Below, piece after piece: positions 3,465 through 11,501 of a DNA stretch of 64,000 nt. The position numbers and the translations under genes were made by a program. The stretch is from Kiloniellaceae bacterium. GTDB lineage: Bacteria > Pseudomonadota > Alphaproteobacteria > Kiloniellales > J153. The stretch covers positions 1 through 64,000 of the forward strand of contig JAJFGO010000035.1 of the NCBI GenBank assembly GCA_021776095.1, given 5' to 3'. The notes under the pieces were generated by a model. That model was not told the origin of the DNA. It was given only the letters and a program-made list of their open reading frames with translations, and did not search any database. How positions within the stretch are numbered: the first letter of the stretch is position 1; every line of letters begins with the position of its first letter.

Positions 3465-6400
3465 ATGCGGATCGAGCGCCGTTTCACCGAAGCCGGGCAA
3501 GACGTCTACACGAACATCGCGTTCCGCCGGACCGCGAGCGAAATCAAGAACCCCGACGGATCGGTGGTGTTTCGGGCCGAGGACATTCAGGTCCCCGCCG
3601 CCTGGAGCCAGGTCGCCTGCGACATCCTGGCCCAGAAGTATTTCCGCAAGCGCGGCATCCCCAAGATCGCCAAGCGAATCGAAGAGAACACGGTGCCCTC
3701 GTGGCTGTGGCGCTCGGTGCCCGACGAGGCGGCCCTGGCCGCCCTGCCCGAGGACCGGCGTTTCGAGGGCGAGCGCGACGCGCGCCAGGTCTTCGATCGC
3801 CTGGCCGGCGCCTGGACCTACTGGGGCTGGAAGGGCGGCTATTTCGACGGCGAGGAAGACGCCCGGGTCTATTTCGACGAGATGCGTTACATGCTGGCGC
3901 GCCAGATGGCGGCGCCCAATTCGCCGCAGTGGTTCAACACCGGCCTGCACTGGGCCTACGGCATCGACGGGCCCAGCCAGGGCCACCACTACGTCGATCA
4001 CGAAACCGGCGACGTCATGCCCTCGGCCTCGGCCTACGAGCGGCCGCAGCCGCATGCCTGCTTCATCCAGTCGGTCAACGACGATCTGGTCAACGAGGCC
4101 GGTATCATGGACCTGTGGGTCCGCGAGGCGCGCCTGTTCAAATACGGCAGCGGCACGGGGACCAATTTCTCGCGCCTGCGCGGCGAGGCCGAACCCCTGT
4201 CGGGCGGCGGCAAGTCCTCCGGCCTGATGAGTTTCCTGAAGATCGGCGACCGCGCCGCCGGGGCGATCAAATCCGGCGGCACCACCCGGCGCGCGGCCAA
4301 GATGGTCACGGTCGACATCGACCACCCGGACATCGAGAGCTACGTCAACTGGAAGATGGTGGAGGAGCAAAAGGTCGCGGCCATGGTGACCGGCTCAAAG
4401 CTGTGCCGGCGCCATTTGAACGCGATCATCCAGGCCTGCCACGCGACCGGCCTGGACGGCGAGGCCCATTTCGATCCCAAGCGCAACCGGGCGCTCAAGC
4501 TGGCGATCCGCGCCGCGCGCCGCAGCGAGATTTCGGAGAACTATATCCAGCGGGTGATTCAGTTCGCGCGCCAGGGCTTCACCGAGATCGATTTCAAGAC
4601 CTACGACACCGATTGGGATTCCGACGCCTACCTGACCGTCTCGGGCCAGAACTCCAACAACTCGGTCCGGGTCACCAACAACTTCATCGAGGCGGTGCTG
4701 AACGACGGCGACTGGAATTTGATCCGGCGCACCGACGGCAAGCCGCACAAGACCCTGAACGCCCGCGCCCTGTGGGATCAAATCGCCGGCGCGGCCTGGG
4801 CCTGCGCCGATCCGGGCATTCAGTTCGACAGCACCATCAACGAGTGGCACACCTGCCCGCAAAGCGGCCGGATCAATGCCTCGAACCCCTGTTCCGAGTA
4901 CATGTTCCTGGACGACACGGCCTGCAACCTGGCCTCGCTCAACCTCATGGCCTTTCGCCAGGACAGCGGCGCGGCGGACGACGCCACGGCACAGGAAAAA
5001 GCCAAGACCCTCGACATCGCGGCCTTGGAGCACGGCGTGCGCCTGTGGACCGTGACCCTGGAAATCTCGGTCCTCATGGCGCAGTTCCCGGCGCATGAAA
5101 TCGCGCGCCTGTCCTACGAGTACCGCACCCTGGGTCTGGGCTACGCCAACATCGGCGGGCTGCTCATGGCCGCCGGCCTGCCTTACGATTCCGAGGCCGG
5201 GCGCGCCGTCTGCGCCGCGATCAGCGCGGTCCTGACCGGTGTCGCCTACGCGACCTCGGCCGAGATGGCGGCGGAGCTGGGCCCCTTCCCCGGCCACGCG
5301 CCGAACCGCGAGGACATGCTGCGCGTGGTCCGCAACCACCGCCGCGCCGCGCACGGCCTGAGCAAGGGCTACGAGGGCCTGGCGGTCAGGCCGGTGCCGC
5401 TCGACGCCGAGGCTTGCCCGGACCCGGTGCTGGCCCAGGCCGCGACCCGGGCCTGGGATCGGGCGCTCGCGCTCGGCGAGGCCCACGGCTTCCGCAACGC
5501 CCAGGCCAGCGTGATCGCGCCGACCGGGACCATCGGCCTGGTCATGGACTGCGACACCACGGGCATCGAGCCGGACTTCGCCCTAGTCAAGTTCAAAAAG
5601 CTGGCCGGCGGCGGCTATTTCAAGATCATCAACCGCACGGTGCCCGAAGCCTTGCGCACCCTGGACTACAGCGAAAGCGAGATCGAGGACATCGTGCGCT
5701 ACACGGTCGGCCGCGGCACCTTGGAGGACGCACCCGGCGTCAACCACGCCCGCCTGCGCGAGAAAGGCTTCACCGACACCGCCCTGCAACTGATCGAGGC
5801 CGGGCTGGGCAGCGCCTTCGACATTAAGTTCGCCTTTTCCAAGTATTCCCTGGGTCAGGATTTCTGCACCGAGGTTCTGGGCCTCAAATCGATCCAGATG
5901 GACGACATCGGCTTCGACATGCTGGCCGAGATCGGCTTCACCCGCCAGGAGATCGAGGCCGCCAACGCCTATTGCTGCGGCGCCATGACCCTGGAGGGCG
6001 CGCCGCACCTGAAGACGCGGGACCTGGCGGTGTTCGATTGCGCGACGCCCTGCGGCCGCAGCGGCACCCGCGCGCTGAGCGTGGAAAGCCACATCCGCAT
6101 GATGGCGGCGGCGCAGCCTTTCATCTCCGGCGCCATTTCCAAGACCATCAACATGCCCAACGACGCGACCGTCGAGGCCTGCAAGGACGCCTACATGCTG
6201 TCCTGGCGTCTGGCGCTCAAGGCGAACGCGCTGTACCGCGACGGCTCCAAGCTGTCGCAGCCGCTGGCGTCCAGCCTGTTCGAAGGCATCGAGGACGACG
6301 ACGAGGAGGCGGAGACCTTCAGCGAGAAAGTCGCCGCCGCCCCGGCCCAGGCCCGCGCCAGCCTGGTCGCCGAGCGGGTTATCGAGCGCATCGTCGAACG

Positions 6401-7547: not shown

Positions 7548-7784
7548 GTGACCAAGAAGCGTAAAATTGTAGATGCCCGCGCGGACAGCGAGGGCGATAT
7601 TACTCACGTTAAATTCGAGGACAATTCTCGTTTCACGTCGGTTGAGCAAGCCATTCCCATGGCGGACCGGGGCGAAATTGAGAATACTCATGTTGTCCGA
7701 GCTGCCGACAAGAAAACGCATCTTCGCACAAACCCGGACAGCAAGAAGTCAAACAACCTTGACGATATGGCTGGCGACAAATAG
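7548..7784 (+). CDS. DUF3892 family small protein
   Basis: This 78-residue cytosolic protein has the DUF3892 pattern: a KRKIVDARADSEGDITHVKF opening, a central MADRGEIENTHVV segment, and the closing THLRTNPDSKKSNNL. These proteins are short, basic-acidic and of unknown function, and are found scattered in accessory regions. The start is GTG at 7548, supported by AAGGAG seven bases upstream. The gene begins the low-GC accessory patch and is not obviously in an operon. Confidence 0.8.
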   Translation: MTKKRKIVDARADSEGDITHVKFEDNSRFTSVEQAIPMADRGEIENTHVVRAADKKTHLRTNPDSKKSNNLDDMAGDK

Positions 7785-8047: not shown

Positions 8048-8671
8048 ATGGCAGGAACCACTATAAACCTAATTCCAATTGAAGAGATACCACCCTACGC
8101 TGAACCCATTGTTCGTGCTATTGGGCTCGCGCATCTTAGTTGGGGAAGGCTAGAACAGCACCTAGATATTCTTCTCAGCGCTGTAAACAATGACCGCTAC
8201 GTGACAGGGGCAGCGCCGCCTCCAAAAATATCTTTTCGCCTAAAGTCCAAACGGTTCAAACAATTATACGCAAAGCACCCTAGCTTTAAGATAGTGCACG
8301 ATATTGCCGGTCCGGTCTGCGATGGGCTCAAGAAAGCAAACATAAGTCGCGTTCGGTTAACTCATTCCAATGTTCAGAGTTTTTCTCCCGGACCGCCAGC
8401 AACTATCAACGTCAGAATCACGAATTTTAGTGGCCCTGACCTGAGAACCAAAGACGGCGCCTGGACGCTTCAAGAAATTGAGAACTTCAATTCACTTCTA
8501 ACTCTACTCAGCACTGATTTTTCAAGAATCAGCGAGCTGACGATGAACGAAGCGTTCCGGAAATCTCTCAAAAAGGAACTATCCCAAATTCAAAGGGCAA
8601 AGCTATGGGTCAGTGATCGTCTACGCCGTTTGCCGCGTCTTCGTATTGACAAACCATCTTCTCGATTTTAG
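8048..8671 (+). CDS. Hypothetical protein, low-GC accessory gene
   Basis: I do not recognise this 207-residue protein. The N-terminal part contains IGLAHLSWGRLEQHLDILLS and, further on, KISFRLKSKRFKQLYAKHP and RVRLTHSN. This order (Trp-x-x-Glu helix, Lys/Phe-rich helix, then an R-x-x-L-x-H motif) recalls orphan helical accessory proteins of the HEPN-like kind, but the likeness is weak. There is no signal peptide or membrane segment. Base composition is clearly lower in GC than the flanking chromosome, and the neighbours are a DUF3892 gene and REP/RAYT elements, which suggests horizontal acquisition. The ATG at 8048 has only a modest upstream AGGGAT. Confidence 0.65.
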   Translation: MAGTTINLIPIEEIPPYAEPIVRAIGLAHLSWGRLEQHLDILLSAVNNDRYVTGAAPPPKISFRLKSKRFKQLYAKHPSFKIVHDIAGPVCDGLKKANISRVRLTHSNVQSFSPGPPATINVRITNFSGPDLRTKDGAWTLQEIENFNSLLTLLSTDFSRISELTMNEAFRKSLKKELSQIQRAKLWVSDRLRRLPRLRIDKPSSRF

Positions 8672-8695: not shown

Positions 8696-8955
8696 TCAGC
8701 CCGCGTAGGGCGGAATAGCGAAGCGTATTCCGCCGGATGCCTCGATGCGGCATACTCGGCCTGGGCCTATCCAAAGTAAGGGGATGTGACGGTGCAGGAC
8801 TATCGGCGCATCCGGGTTCCCGGCGACTGCTTTTTCTTCACCGTGACCCTGCTGGAGCGACACGGGCTCTAGCCCATCGAGTGGGCAGCGCGAAGACGTC
8901 ACGGCCGGTGAACCGGGCGAATGAGTCATCCGGCGCTACGCGCTAACGTATTGGT
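8696..8955 (+). mobile_element. Internally deleted RAYT/REP element (non-autonomous derivative)
   Basis: This copy matches the complete RAYT element at 9285-9970 at both ends but lacks its middle. It has the left REP (8705-8734), the leader, and the first roughly 80 bases of the transposase gene up to CACGGG at 8861-8866. After six bases it then resumes at CCCATCGAGTGGGC, which in the full copy lies at 9867, near the end of the gene. About 400 bases are missing. The right REP hairpin is only half present (arm and loop, then divergent sequence from about 8948). It cannot encode a transposase but could be mobilised by one. Confidence 0.8.
8705..8734 (+). repeat. REP hairpin with GTAG head
   Basis: GTAG at 8705-8708 is followed by GGCGGAATA pairing with TATTCCGCC around GCGAAGC. 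This is the layout that RAYT transposases recognise: a tetranucleotide next to a hairpin foot. It is identical to the copy at 9300-9329. Confidence 0.85.
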
Positions 8956-8980
8956 CCGAAAGTTCGGGGGATGTTTGGTG

Positions 8981-9277
8981 TTGCAGTTAAGATACCCATC
9001 GACAGCATTTGCGGCGGCTTGGGCGGAGGCGCTGAGAAAGGGCGTCGATTTCAGTGTCGAAGCCAAAATCAGCAAATTCAAACTGAAATCTATTCATGGT
9101 CTCATTGACTTCATGTCCGGTGAAGGGGGAAATGGCCTTTCACTGTTGGGCTCCGCATTGTTCTGCGGTCAACTTCACGTGTGTGTAACCAAAGCTATCG
9201 GTACCAAGCAATACGACGTTGGTTATTCAATAATCGAGTCAGGTACTGTGATCAAATTTCATCGTAGGGGATCCTAG
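8981..9277 (+). CDS. Hypothetical protein between two RAYT/REP elements
   Basis: An open frame runs through from the deleted RAYT element (from 8921) to 9277. Its first part is REP-derived, so the gene, if real, begins after about 8955. TTG at 8981 is the first in-frame candidate and would give 98 residues. The protein has no recognised domain. It is mixed alpha/beta in character, with a Gly-rich centre (MSGEGGNGLSLLGS) and Cys residues near FCGQLHVCVTK. GC content is lower than in the surrounding chromosome. It may be an intact orphan, or a fragment whose 5' end was lost when the REP element inserted. Confidence 0.35.
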   Translation: MQLRYPSTAFAAAWAEALRKGVDFSVEAKISKFKLKSIHGLIDFMSGEGGNGLSLLGSALFCGQLHVCVTKAIGTKQYDVGYSIIESGTVIKFHRRGS

Positions 9278-9299
9278 CCTCGCAGCCCGCGTTGCCTAC

Positions 9300-9329
9300 G
9301 TAGGGCGGAATAGCGAAGCGTATTCCGCC
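9300..9329 (+). repeat. REP hairpin with GTAG head, left of RAYT
   Basis: GTAG at 9300-9303 precedes a perfect 9-bp stem (GGCGGAATA with TATTCCGCC). It is the same sequence as at 8705-8734 and lies about 57 bases upstream of the RAYT coding sequence. Confidence 0.85.
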
Positions 9330-9386
9330 GGATGTCTTGGTTTGGCATACTCGGCCTGGGCCTATCCAAAGTAAGGGGATGTGACA

Positions 9387-9926
9387 GTGCCGGACTATCG
9401 GCGCATCCGGGTTCCCGGCGGCTGCTTTTTCTTCACCGTGAACCTGCTGGAGCGGCACGGGAACGACCTTTTGACGCGGCGGGTCGATCTGCTGCGTGAC
9501 GCGGTCCGCCGCGTGCGGCGGGTGCGGCCATTTTCAATTGATTCCTGGGCGGTGCTGCCCGATCACATGCATTGCGTTTGGACCCTGCCGCCGGGAGACG
9601 ACGATTACGCGACCCGTTGGCGCCTCATCAAGACCGAATTCTCCAAGGGACTGCCCGCCACCGAACGCCGATCCGCGGCGCGGCGCCGGCGCGGCGAACG
9701 CGGTGTTTGGCAGCGACGTTTCTGGGAGCACGCCATTCGCGACGACGCGGACTATGCCGCGCATATGGATTACGTCCACTTCAACCCGGTTAAGCACGGG
9801 TATGTCCGGCAAGCGTCGGACTGGCCGTATTCGACCTTTAAGACCTGTGTGCGGCGCGGCCTTTATCCCATCGAGTGGGCGGGGGGCGCGCACGAAGACG
9901 TCACGGCCGGCGAACCGGGCGAATGA
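9387..9926 (+). CDS. REP-associated tyrosine transposase (RAYT, Y1 family)
   Basis: It is a single-strand transposase related to IS200/IS605 TnpA that acts on REP hairpins. The 179-residue product begins MPDYRRIRVPGG, the usual RAYT opening. The metal-binding pair is H60-M-H62 within LPDHMHCVW, and the likely nucleophile is Tyr129 in HMDYVHFNPVKHG. ATR WRLIKTEFSKGL and a basic RRSAARRRRGERGVWQRRFWEH segment follow the family order. GTG at 9387 is preferred over GTG at 9381 because AAGGGG at 9373-9378 is then correctly spaced and the protein starts at the family's usual position. The frame looks intact, so the element may be active. It is a stand-alone gene bounded by REPs. Confidence 0.9.
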   Translation: MPDYRRIRVPGGCFFFTVNLLERHGNDLLTRRVDLLRDAVRRVRRVRPFSIDSWAVLPDHMHCVWTLPPGDDDYATRWRLIKTEFSKGLPATERRSAARRRRGERGVWQRRFWEHAIRDDADYAAHMDYVHFNPVKHGYVRQASDWPYSTFKTCVRRGLYPIEWAGGAHEDVTAGEPGE

Positions 9927-9927
9927 G

Positions 9928-9970
9928 TCATCCGGCGCAATACGCTAACGCTATTGCGCCGGATGACTAC
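9928..9970 (-). repeat. REP hairpin, right of RAYT, inverted
   Basis: The arms TCATCCGGCGCAATA (9928-9942) and TATTGCGCCGGATGA (9952-9966) pair perfectly around CGCTAACGC. CTAC at 9967-9970 reads GTAG on the minus strand, so the head faces inward-out opposite to the left REP. The left arm overlaps the RAYT stop region by a few bases beyond 9926. Confidence 0.85.
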
Positions 9971-10276: not shown

Positions 10277-10302
10277 CGTCCTTCGACAGGCTCAGGATGA
10301 GG
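10277..10302 (+). repeat. Dispersed repeat (TTCGACAGGCTCAGGATGAG)
   Basis: This is a variant of the repeats at 162-188 and 307-332 with one base change in the centre. It is followed at once by a partial second copy, AAGCTCAGGATGAGG. Confidence 0.75.
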
Positions 10303-10431
10303 AAGCTCAGGATGAGGGCTGGAGGTGTGCGCCCCTCCCCCATATCCCGCCCCGGCGGGACGTGACCCGGCGCCGGGTTTGACCTATCCTGGGCCCATGC
10401 GACGCCGAGGAAACCGAGGGCTACACCGAGC

Positions 10432-10938
10432 ATGACAGACAGCCTAAGCCAAAAAATCGTCGACGACCTGGTGGCCAACCAGATCGCCTTCGTGACCACG
10501 GTGCCCTGCAAGCAGTTGGCCGGGGTGATCGAGGCCATCGAGGACTGCGAGCGCATCCTGCACGTGCCCTCGAACAAGGAGGACGAGGGCATGGGCCTGT
10601 GCGCGGGCGCCTACATGGGCGGCAAGCGGCCGGCCATCGTCATGCAGAACACCGCGCTGGGCGTCACCCTTAATACCCTGGCGACCCTGATCCAGTTCTA
10701 CCAGATCCCCCTGCCCATGCTGATCAGCTATCGCGGCGAGATCGGCGAGAAGGTCGCCTGCCAGGTCGAGATGGCGGTGCACACCAAGGCGCTGCTCAAC
10801 CAGCTTGCGATCCCGACCTATCACTTCCACCGGCCCGAGGACGCGGCGGAACTGGACGGCATCCTGAAGCACACGCAGATGTGCAAGAAGCCCTCCGCCA
10901 TCCTCATGGACGCCACATTTTGGAGGGGCGCGGCATGA
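10432..10938 (+). CDS. comD: Sulfopyruvate decarboxylase-like, alpha subunit
   Basis: This 168-residue protein corresponds to the pyrimidine-binding half of a split thiamine-diphosphate decarboxylase. The conserved glutamate that activates the cofactor is in VPSNKEDEGMGLCAGAYMGGK (residues about 44-63). ComD with ComE decarboxylates sulfopyruvate to sulfoacetaldehyde in coenzyme M synthesis, and in some marine Alphaproteobacteria in sulfolactate breakdown. Phosphonopyruvate decarboxylase is a close relative and cannot be excluded. The gene overlaps comE by four bases (ATGA), so the subunits are translationally coupled. No sulfolactate dehydrogenase, sulfoacetaldehyde acetyltransferase or coenzyme M genes are in the window. 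Confidence 0.85.
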   Translation: MTDSLSQKIVDDLVANQIAFVTTVPCKQLAGVIEAIEDCERILHVPSNKEDEGMGLCAGAYMGGKRPAIVMQNTALGVTLNTLATLIQFYQIPLPMLISYRGEIGEKVACQVEMAVHTKALLNQLAIPTYHFHRPEDAAELDGILKHTQMCKKPSAILMDATFWRGAA

Positions 10939-11501
10939 TCCGCAGCGAGGTCCTGAAATCCATCGTGCCGGTGCTCGACGGCCGGCTGGTGGTCTGCAAC
11001 ATCGGCCTGCCGTCCCAGGAGCTTCACCTGCTGCACGATCAGCCGAGCACCTTCTACATGCTGGGCACCATGGGGCTGGCCTCCTCCATCGGCCTGGGCC
11101 TGGCCCTGGCGCAGCCGGACAAGGTCGTCGCCATCGACGGCGACGGTTCGGTGCTGACCAACCTGGCCACCCTGGCGACCATCGCCAACAACGTCTGCGA
11201 CAACTTCGTGCTACTGATTATCGACAACGGCAGCTACGGCTCGACCGGCGATCAGCCGACCTATGCCGGCCGGAAAACATCCCTCGCGGCGGTCGCCACG
11301 GCCTGCGGCTGCGCCCATGTCATCGAGTGCGACGCGGCGGAGACCGCCGACGTTCTGCGCCACGCCCTGGAGTCCGACCGCATGACCGTCATCGTCTGCA
11401 AATGCGAGTCGGGCAACATCCCGGTGCCGGTGATCGAGATCCCGCCGGTCGTGATCCGCGACCGCTTCATGGCCGCTGTCAAGTCGCGCGCGGCCTCCTA
11501 A
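10935..11501 (+). CDS. comE: Sulfopyruvate decarboxylase-like, beta subunit
   Basis: This 188-residue protein carries the diphosphate-binding half of the split enzyme. The ThDP motif is IDGDGSVLTNLATLATIANN running to IDNGSYGSTG (about residues 68-105), with GDG, the NN pair and the following IDNG. The start is the ATG that overlaps the comD stop. An upstream in-frame ATG at 10881 lies inside comD and is unlikely. The gene converges with the MscS gene, and the two stop codons overlap. Its role follows that of comD: sulfopyruvate to sulfoacetaldehyde, or possibly another 3-substituted pyruvate. Confidence 0.85.
   Translation: MIRSEVLKSIVPVLDGRLVVCNIGLPSQELHLLHDQPSTFYMLGTMGLASSIGLGLALAQPDKVVAIDGDGSVLTNLATLATIANNVCDNFVLLIIDNGSYGSTGDQPTYAGRKTSLAAVATACGCAHVIECDAAETADVLRHALESDRMTVIVCKCESGNIPVPVIEIPPVVIRDRFMAAVKSRAAS

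Follow-up and report, generated by a model that had tools for sequence, protein, structure and literature searches.

How did a shortened copy of an element with a REP-associated tyrosine transposase (RAYT) gene come to lie beside its intact counterpart, and is it a mobile derivative of that element? The locus that raises this question belongs to a Kiloniellaceae bacterium (GCA_021776095.1; GTDB lineage Bacteria; Pseudomonadota; Alphaproteobacteria; Kiloniellales; J153). It lies in a window, the whole stretch of 64,000 nucleotides that was analysed, which comprises positions 1-64,000 of contig JAJFGO010000035.1. The intact element, unit B, has the following features.

9300-9970: unit B as a whole, REP to REP, 671 bp
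9300-9329, forward strand: left GTAG-headed REP hairpin (pattern search, folding)
9330-9380, forward strand: leader (A/B alignment)
9381-9926, forward strand: RAYT/TnpAREP gene, intact, 181 aa (profile, structure match, motifs)
9926-9970, reverse strand: right GTAG-headed REP, inverted relative to the left REP, with a 17-bp perfect stem (folding)

The protein of unit B matched the NCBIfam profile NF047646 (REP-associated tyrosine transposase) with 203.8 bits, against a cut-off of 80, and the structure of E. coli TnpAREP (4er8) over nearly its whole length (phmmer, 1.5e-57). It carries the HUH motif HMH at residues 62-64 and the catalytic-tyrosine motif YVHFNP at residues 131-136; the gene starts with GTG at either 9381 or 9387. 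The perfect hairpin of the right REP has a folding energy of -22.9 kcal/mol (z -9.0). Inverted GTAG/GTGG-headed hairpins were found on both sides of the RAYT gene at 35 of 77 usable RAYT loci, the window locus among them, compared with 1 of 1027 random placements. Taken together, the profile and structure matches, the motifs and the flanking inverted hairpins identify unit B as an ordinary REPtron of the E. coli TnpAREP type. As in the E. coli TnpAREP/RayT REPtron (PDB 4er8), a gene for an HUH protein with a single tyrosine lies between inverted GTAG-headed REPs, and E. coli rayT and its counterpart in unit B are about 44-51% identical. Unlike in the E. coli REPtron, the left and right REPs of unit B differ from each other, dispersed REPs are absent from the genome, and a gutted second copy adjoins the element. 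E. coli TnpAREP nicks its own REPs in single-stranded DNA (PMC8266576), and the RAYT of unit B presumably acts on its own REPs in the same way.

The second copy, unit A, lies about 330 bp upstream of unit B in the same orientation. Its features and the spacer between the units are as follows.

8705-8965: unit A as a whole, about 260 bp
8705-8734, forward strand: left GTAG-headed REP hairpin, identical to that of unit B (pattern search, alignment, folding)
8735-8785, forward strand: leader (alignment)
8786-8866, forward strand: first 81 nt of the RAYT gene, with the changes P4Q, G14D and N21T relative to unit B
8857-8876, forward strand: deletion junction, at which 399 nt of unit B are absent (alignment, repeat)
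8867-8924, forward strand: end of the RAYT gene, with an extra 8-nt frameshifting deletion (alignment)
8924-8965, reverse strand: remnant of the right REP, hairpin gone, CTAC changed to GTTC (alignment, folding)
8966-9284, unstranded: spacer between units A and B, low in G+C, unlike any other flank, with an ORFan frame (about 8978-9277)

Unit A aligned with unit B in two blocks. Positions 8704-8866, comprising the left REP, the leader and the first 81 nt of the gene, matched 9299-9461 with about 94% identity (E 1.9e-66), and positions 8857-8953, which cover the final ~66 nt of the gene and run into the first arm of the right REP, matched 9851-9957 with 81% identity (E 1.3e-21). Across this 3' homologous part (gene end and right REP start), identity was 81-92%. 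Such a pairing is far beyond chance. The 399 nt missing from unit A correspond to 9462-9860 of unit B, and the second deletion, which lies opposite 9881-9888 of unit B, breaks the reading frame. At the three changed positions most relatives keep the residue of unit B (P in 42, G in 57 and N in 58 of 69), indicating that unit A is the copy that decayed. Since its right REP is lost, unit A is no longer a possible substrate with two ends, and it presumably does nothing today. Unit A is thus a second REPtron copy that has been internally deleted and is dead, next to the intact unit B.

The initial annotation had described a full RAYT gene between two differing GTAG-headed REP hairpins, which the profile match and the hairpin folding bore out. 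It had also described a second unit with the same left REP and leader and with the start and end of the gene, lacking about 400 bases in between; the alignment agreed almost to the base and added the 8-nt deletion. The suggestion that the right hairpin of this unit is broken and the unit possibly dead was likewise confirmed, because the hairpin folded no better than shuffled sequences (z -0.5) and its CTAC is lost.

We searched the draft genome (5.0 Mb in 122 contigs, 95% complete), in which copies inside unassembled repeats may escape detection, and found no further full or deleted copy of the unit, the protein or the family beyond A and B. Apart from the two left REPs, the draft contained no dispersed REPs of the A/B type either, even when the search pattern was loosened; dispersed cognate REPs are a usual, not an obligatory, accompaniment of a RAYT. 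The sites inspected for an empty counterpart gave no comparable region: the DNA that follows the ribonucleotide reductase gene is different and non-syntenic in the four relatives examined, and the DNA beside an MscS-like gene in G001 is not comparable with the A/B site. With just two units in the genome, which was the first half of the refuting condition named in the initial annotation, the mobilisation of unit A in trans that had been proposed is unsupported. The accompanying description of unit A as a MITE-like derivative holds in one respect, namely that the unit is internally deleted from a REPtron like B, and not in the other, as a single copy is no proliferating non-autonomous element. 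Like MITEs and internally deleted derivatives of insertion sequences, unit A has the ends of an element and an internal deletion (399 nt less than unit B, the autonomy of which is putative). Unlike MITEs, which have both ends intact and several copies at different sites, it has one end destroyed, with the right REP unfolded, and is without copy number or shown movement. It resembles REPINs (Bertels and Rainey 2011, PMC3116915) in having had two inverted REPs with DNA between them. REPINs are gene-free replicating units, whereas unit A retains the leader and the gene ends, is present once and has a dead right REP.

The boundaries of the homology bear on the origin of the second copy. Units A and B are homologous from the left REP up to the right REP and not beyond, and for the spacer no homology was seen either to the upstream flank of A or to the downstream flank of B. 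In shuffle tests of the flanks, p was 0.34-0.86 downstream and 0.05-0.09 upstream, where the match near the REP was an exact 8-nt word. The sole possible exception is the 9-nt CAGCCCGCG, which occurs just upstream of both left REPs at positions offset by 9 nt. Homologues of the spacer ORF, which would bear on whether unit A interrupts a gene, were found in none of 385 genomes of the class and in no plasmids. Because the homology is confined to the interval from REP to REP and the spacer and flanks are unrelated, unit A arose as a REP-bounded unit and not by a simple tandem duplication that included the spacer.

Unit A is therefore most probably what remains, in decayed form, of a second copy of the element of unit B, which was bounded by REPs and stood 330 bp upstream. 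In the proposed course of events, the second copy would have been inserted as a unit, either by local RAYT transposition or through two insertions into one acquired segment. Slippage between short direct repeats would then have removed 399 bp, and the loss of the right REP would have followed in the absence of selection. A 10-nt imperfect direct repeat, GCGGC[A/G]CGG[G/C], is present at both deletion ends (GCGGCACGGG at 9453-9462 and GCGGCGCGGC at 9851-9860 in unit B), as would be expected of slippage. Counting against this explanation, CAGCCCGCG upstream of both left REPs could mean that some of the flank was copied too. RAYTs are described as single-copy genes and REPtrons as not transposing as units (PMC3116915, PMC6006769, PMC8266576), so that a second copy made by transposition contradicts the accepted view.

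The surroundings of the pair bear on a different course. In the segment 7250-9290 the G+C content is low (46-52% versus about 65%); it contains a DUF3892 gene (7548-7784) as well as ORFans (8048-8671 and about 8978-9277). This segment was absent from the corresponding position in the sister species and is probably acquired DNA. The A/B-type RAYT was not found in 60 other genomes of the order, and its nearest relatives (52-74% protein identity) have a scattered distribution, chiefly among alpha-, beta- and gammaproteobacteria; viral contigs yielded just one RAYT relative, at 46%. The scattered relatives and the absence from those 60 genomes make horizontal acquisition of the RAYT likely. It is conceivable, at lower probability than our preferred reading, that A and B arrived together with segment 7250-9290, already so arranged. 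In favour of joint arrival, unit A lies inside and unit B at the edge of this ORFan segment, which is missing downstream of the same gene in the sister species, and the RAYT type is absent from the 60 other genomes of the order that were searched. However, the G+C content of both units (60-66%) is that of the genome and not of the segment, and no donor with this arrangement was found, the closest relative of the B protein being 74% identical. Joint arrival is a matter of the time and place of origin of the second copy, and unit A could be a relic under it as well.

Gene pieces next to intact RAYT genes are not confined to this locus. Within 5 kb of an intact RAYT, such pieces were present at 11 of 80 related loci, compared with 0 of 80 in the reversed-sequence control (E<1e-5). 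The closest parallel to unit A is in Methylomonas sp. SURF-2 (L065, 4198-4672), where an internally deleted RAYT unit with 5' and 3' parts lies about 590 bp upstream of its parent and consists of a left REP and leader, the initial ~60 nt of the gene, the final 24 nt of the gene and downstream repeats, in that order. At another locus (L060), repeated units with REP-like ends (1470-1748 and 3669-3896) lie beside the RAYT gene and contain a 49-nt piece from its middle. At a third (L101:3826-3922), a left REP directly adjoins the 3' end of the RAYT gene, the kind of head-to-tail junction that a circle or a tandem copy would leave. Tandem segmental duplication, whether through replication slippage or through unequal recombination, with a later deletion and without any transposase, could produce RAYT fragments beside RAYT genes at other loci, and would fit the closeness and common orientation of A and B and the CAGCCCGCG that precedes both left REPs. 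We consider it unlikely here, since the homology is bounded by the REPs and nothing like the 330-bp spacer stands upstream of A or downstream of B. The form of duplication that includes the spacer is disfavoured, because the flanks lack homology.

REPs of the same superfamily as those of A and B occur in three sister species, with 3-5 scattered REPs each. Most form inverted pairs in which a left-type hairpin (loop GCGAAGCG) is combined with a right-type one over 86-145 bp from end to end, and these scattered pairs resemble REPINs; examples are G001:C6:14025-14170 and G003:C36:2629-2714 (L153, L156), in species without an A/B-type RAYT. No REPs of the A/B type were found around the distant RAYTs of the sister species, and remnants of the leader in the REP pairs were weak (shuffle p 0.006 in G004, 0.05 in G001 and 0.23 in G002) and carry no weight in our reading. 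That unit A was first internally deleted and then moved in trans by the RAYT of B to its present site is very improbable: it kept the left REP, leader and 3' end, parts that a RAYT might need, and the pairs of the sister species suggest that small REP-bounded units spread in the genus, but the genome holds a single deleted copy and no dispersed REPs, the right REP of A is dead and the parent is only 330 bp away.

Two other features lie downstream of unit B. A dispersed 27-nt repeat around CTTCGACAGGCTCAGGATGA is located at 10277-10303, with exact or near-exact copies, some in inverted pairs, at the sister-species loci L148, L149, L152, L153 and L157. Two overlapping frames at 10432-11501 hold, between them, the N-terminal and the C-terminal domain of a thiamine-pyrophosphate enzyme, which we guess to be of the sulfopyruvate or phosphonopyruvate decarboxylase type.

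Our preferred reading, a decayed second REP-bounded copy, makes the pair a minor counter-example to the view that RAYTs are single-copy and immobile; otherwise the locus is ordinary. As a dead relic, the single A/B locus proves no movement. Leaving the mechanism aside, local second copies such as those described above slightly qualify that view. A more general proposition, which we regard as quite doubtful, is that a REPtron of the E. coli TnpAREP type is able to insert a nearby second copy from REP to REP and that internal deletion of such copies is the origin of REPINs. If the proposition were true, a series would lead from the REPtron (671 bp) through unit A (about 260 bp) to the REP pairs seen in the sister species (86-145 bp). 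In published accounts, REPINs may descend from an IS200-like ancestor, of which they would represent the ends, by steps that these accounts leave unspecified. REP-bounded deleted RAYT copies beside intact RAYTs, here and in Methylomonas sp. SURF-2, provide a small set in which the route to REPINs may be examined.
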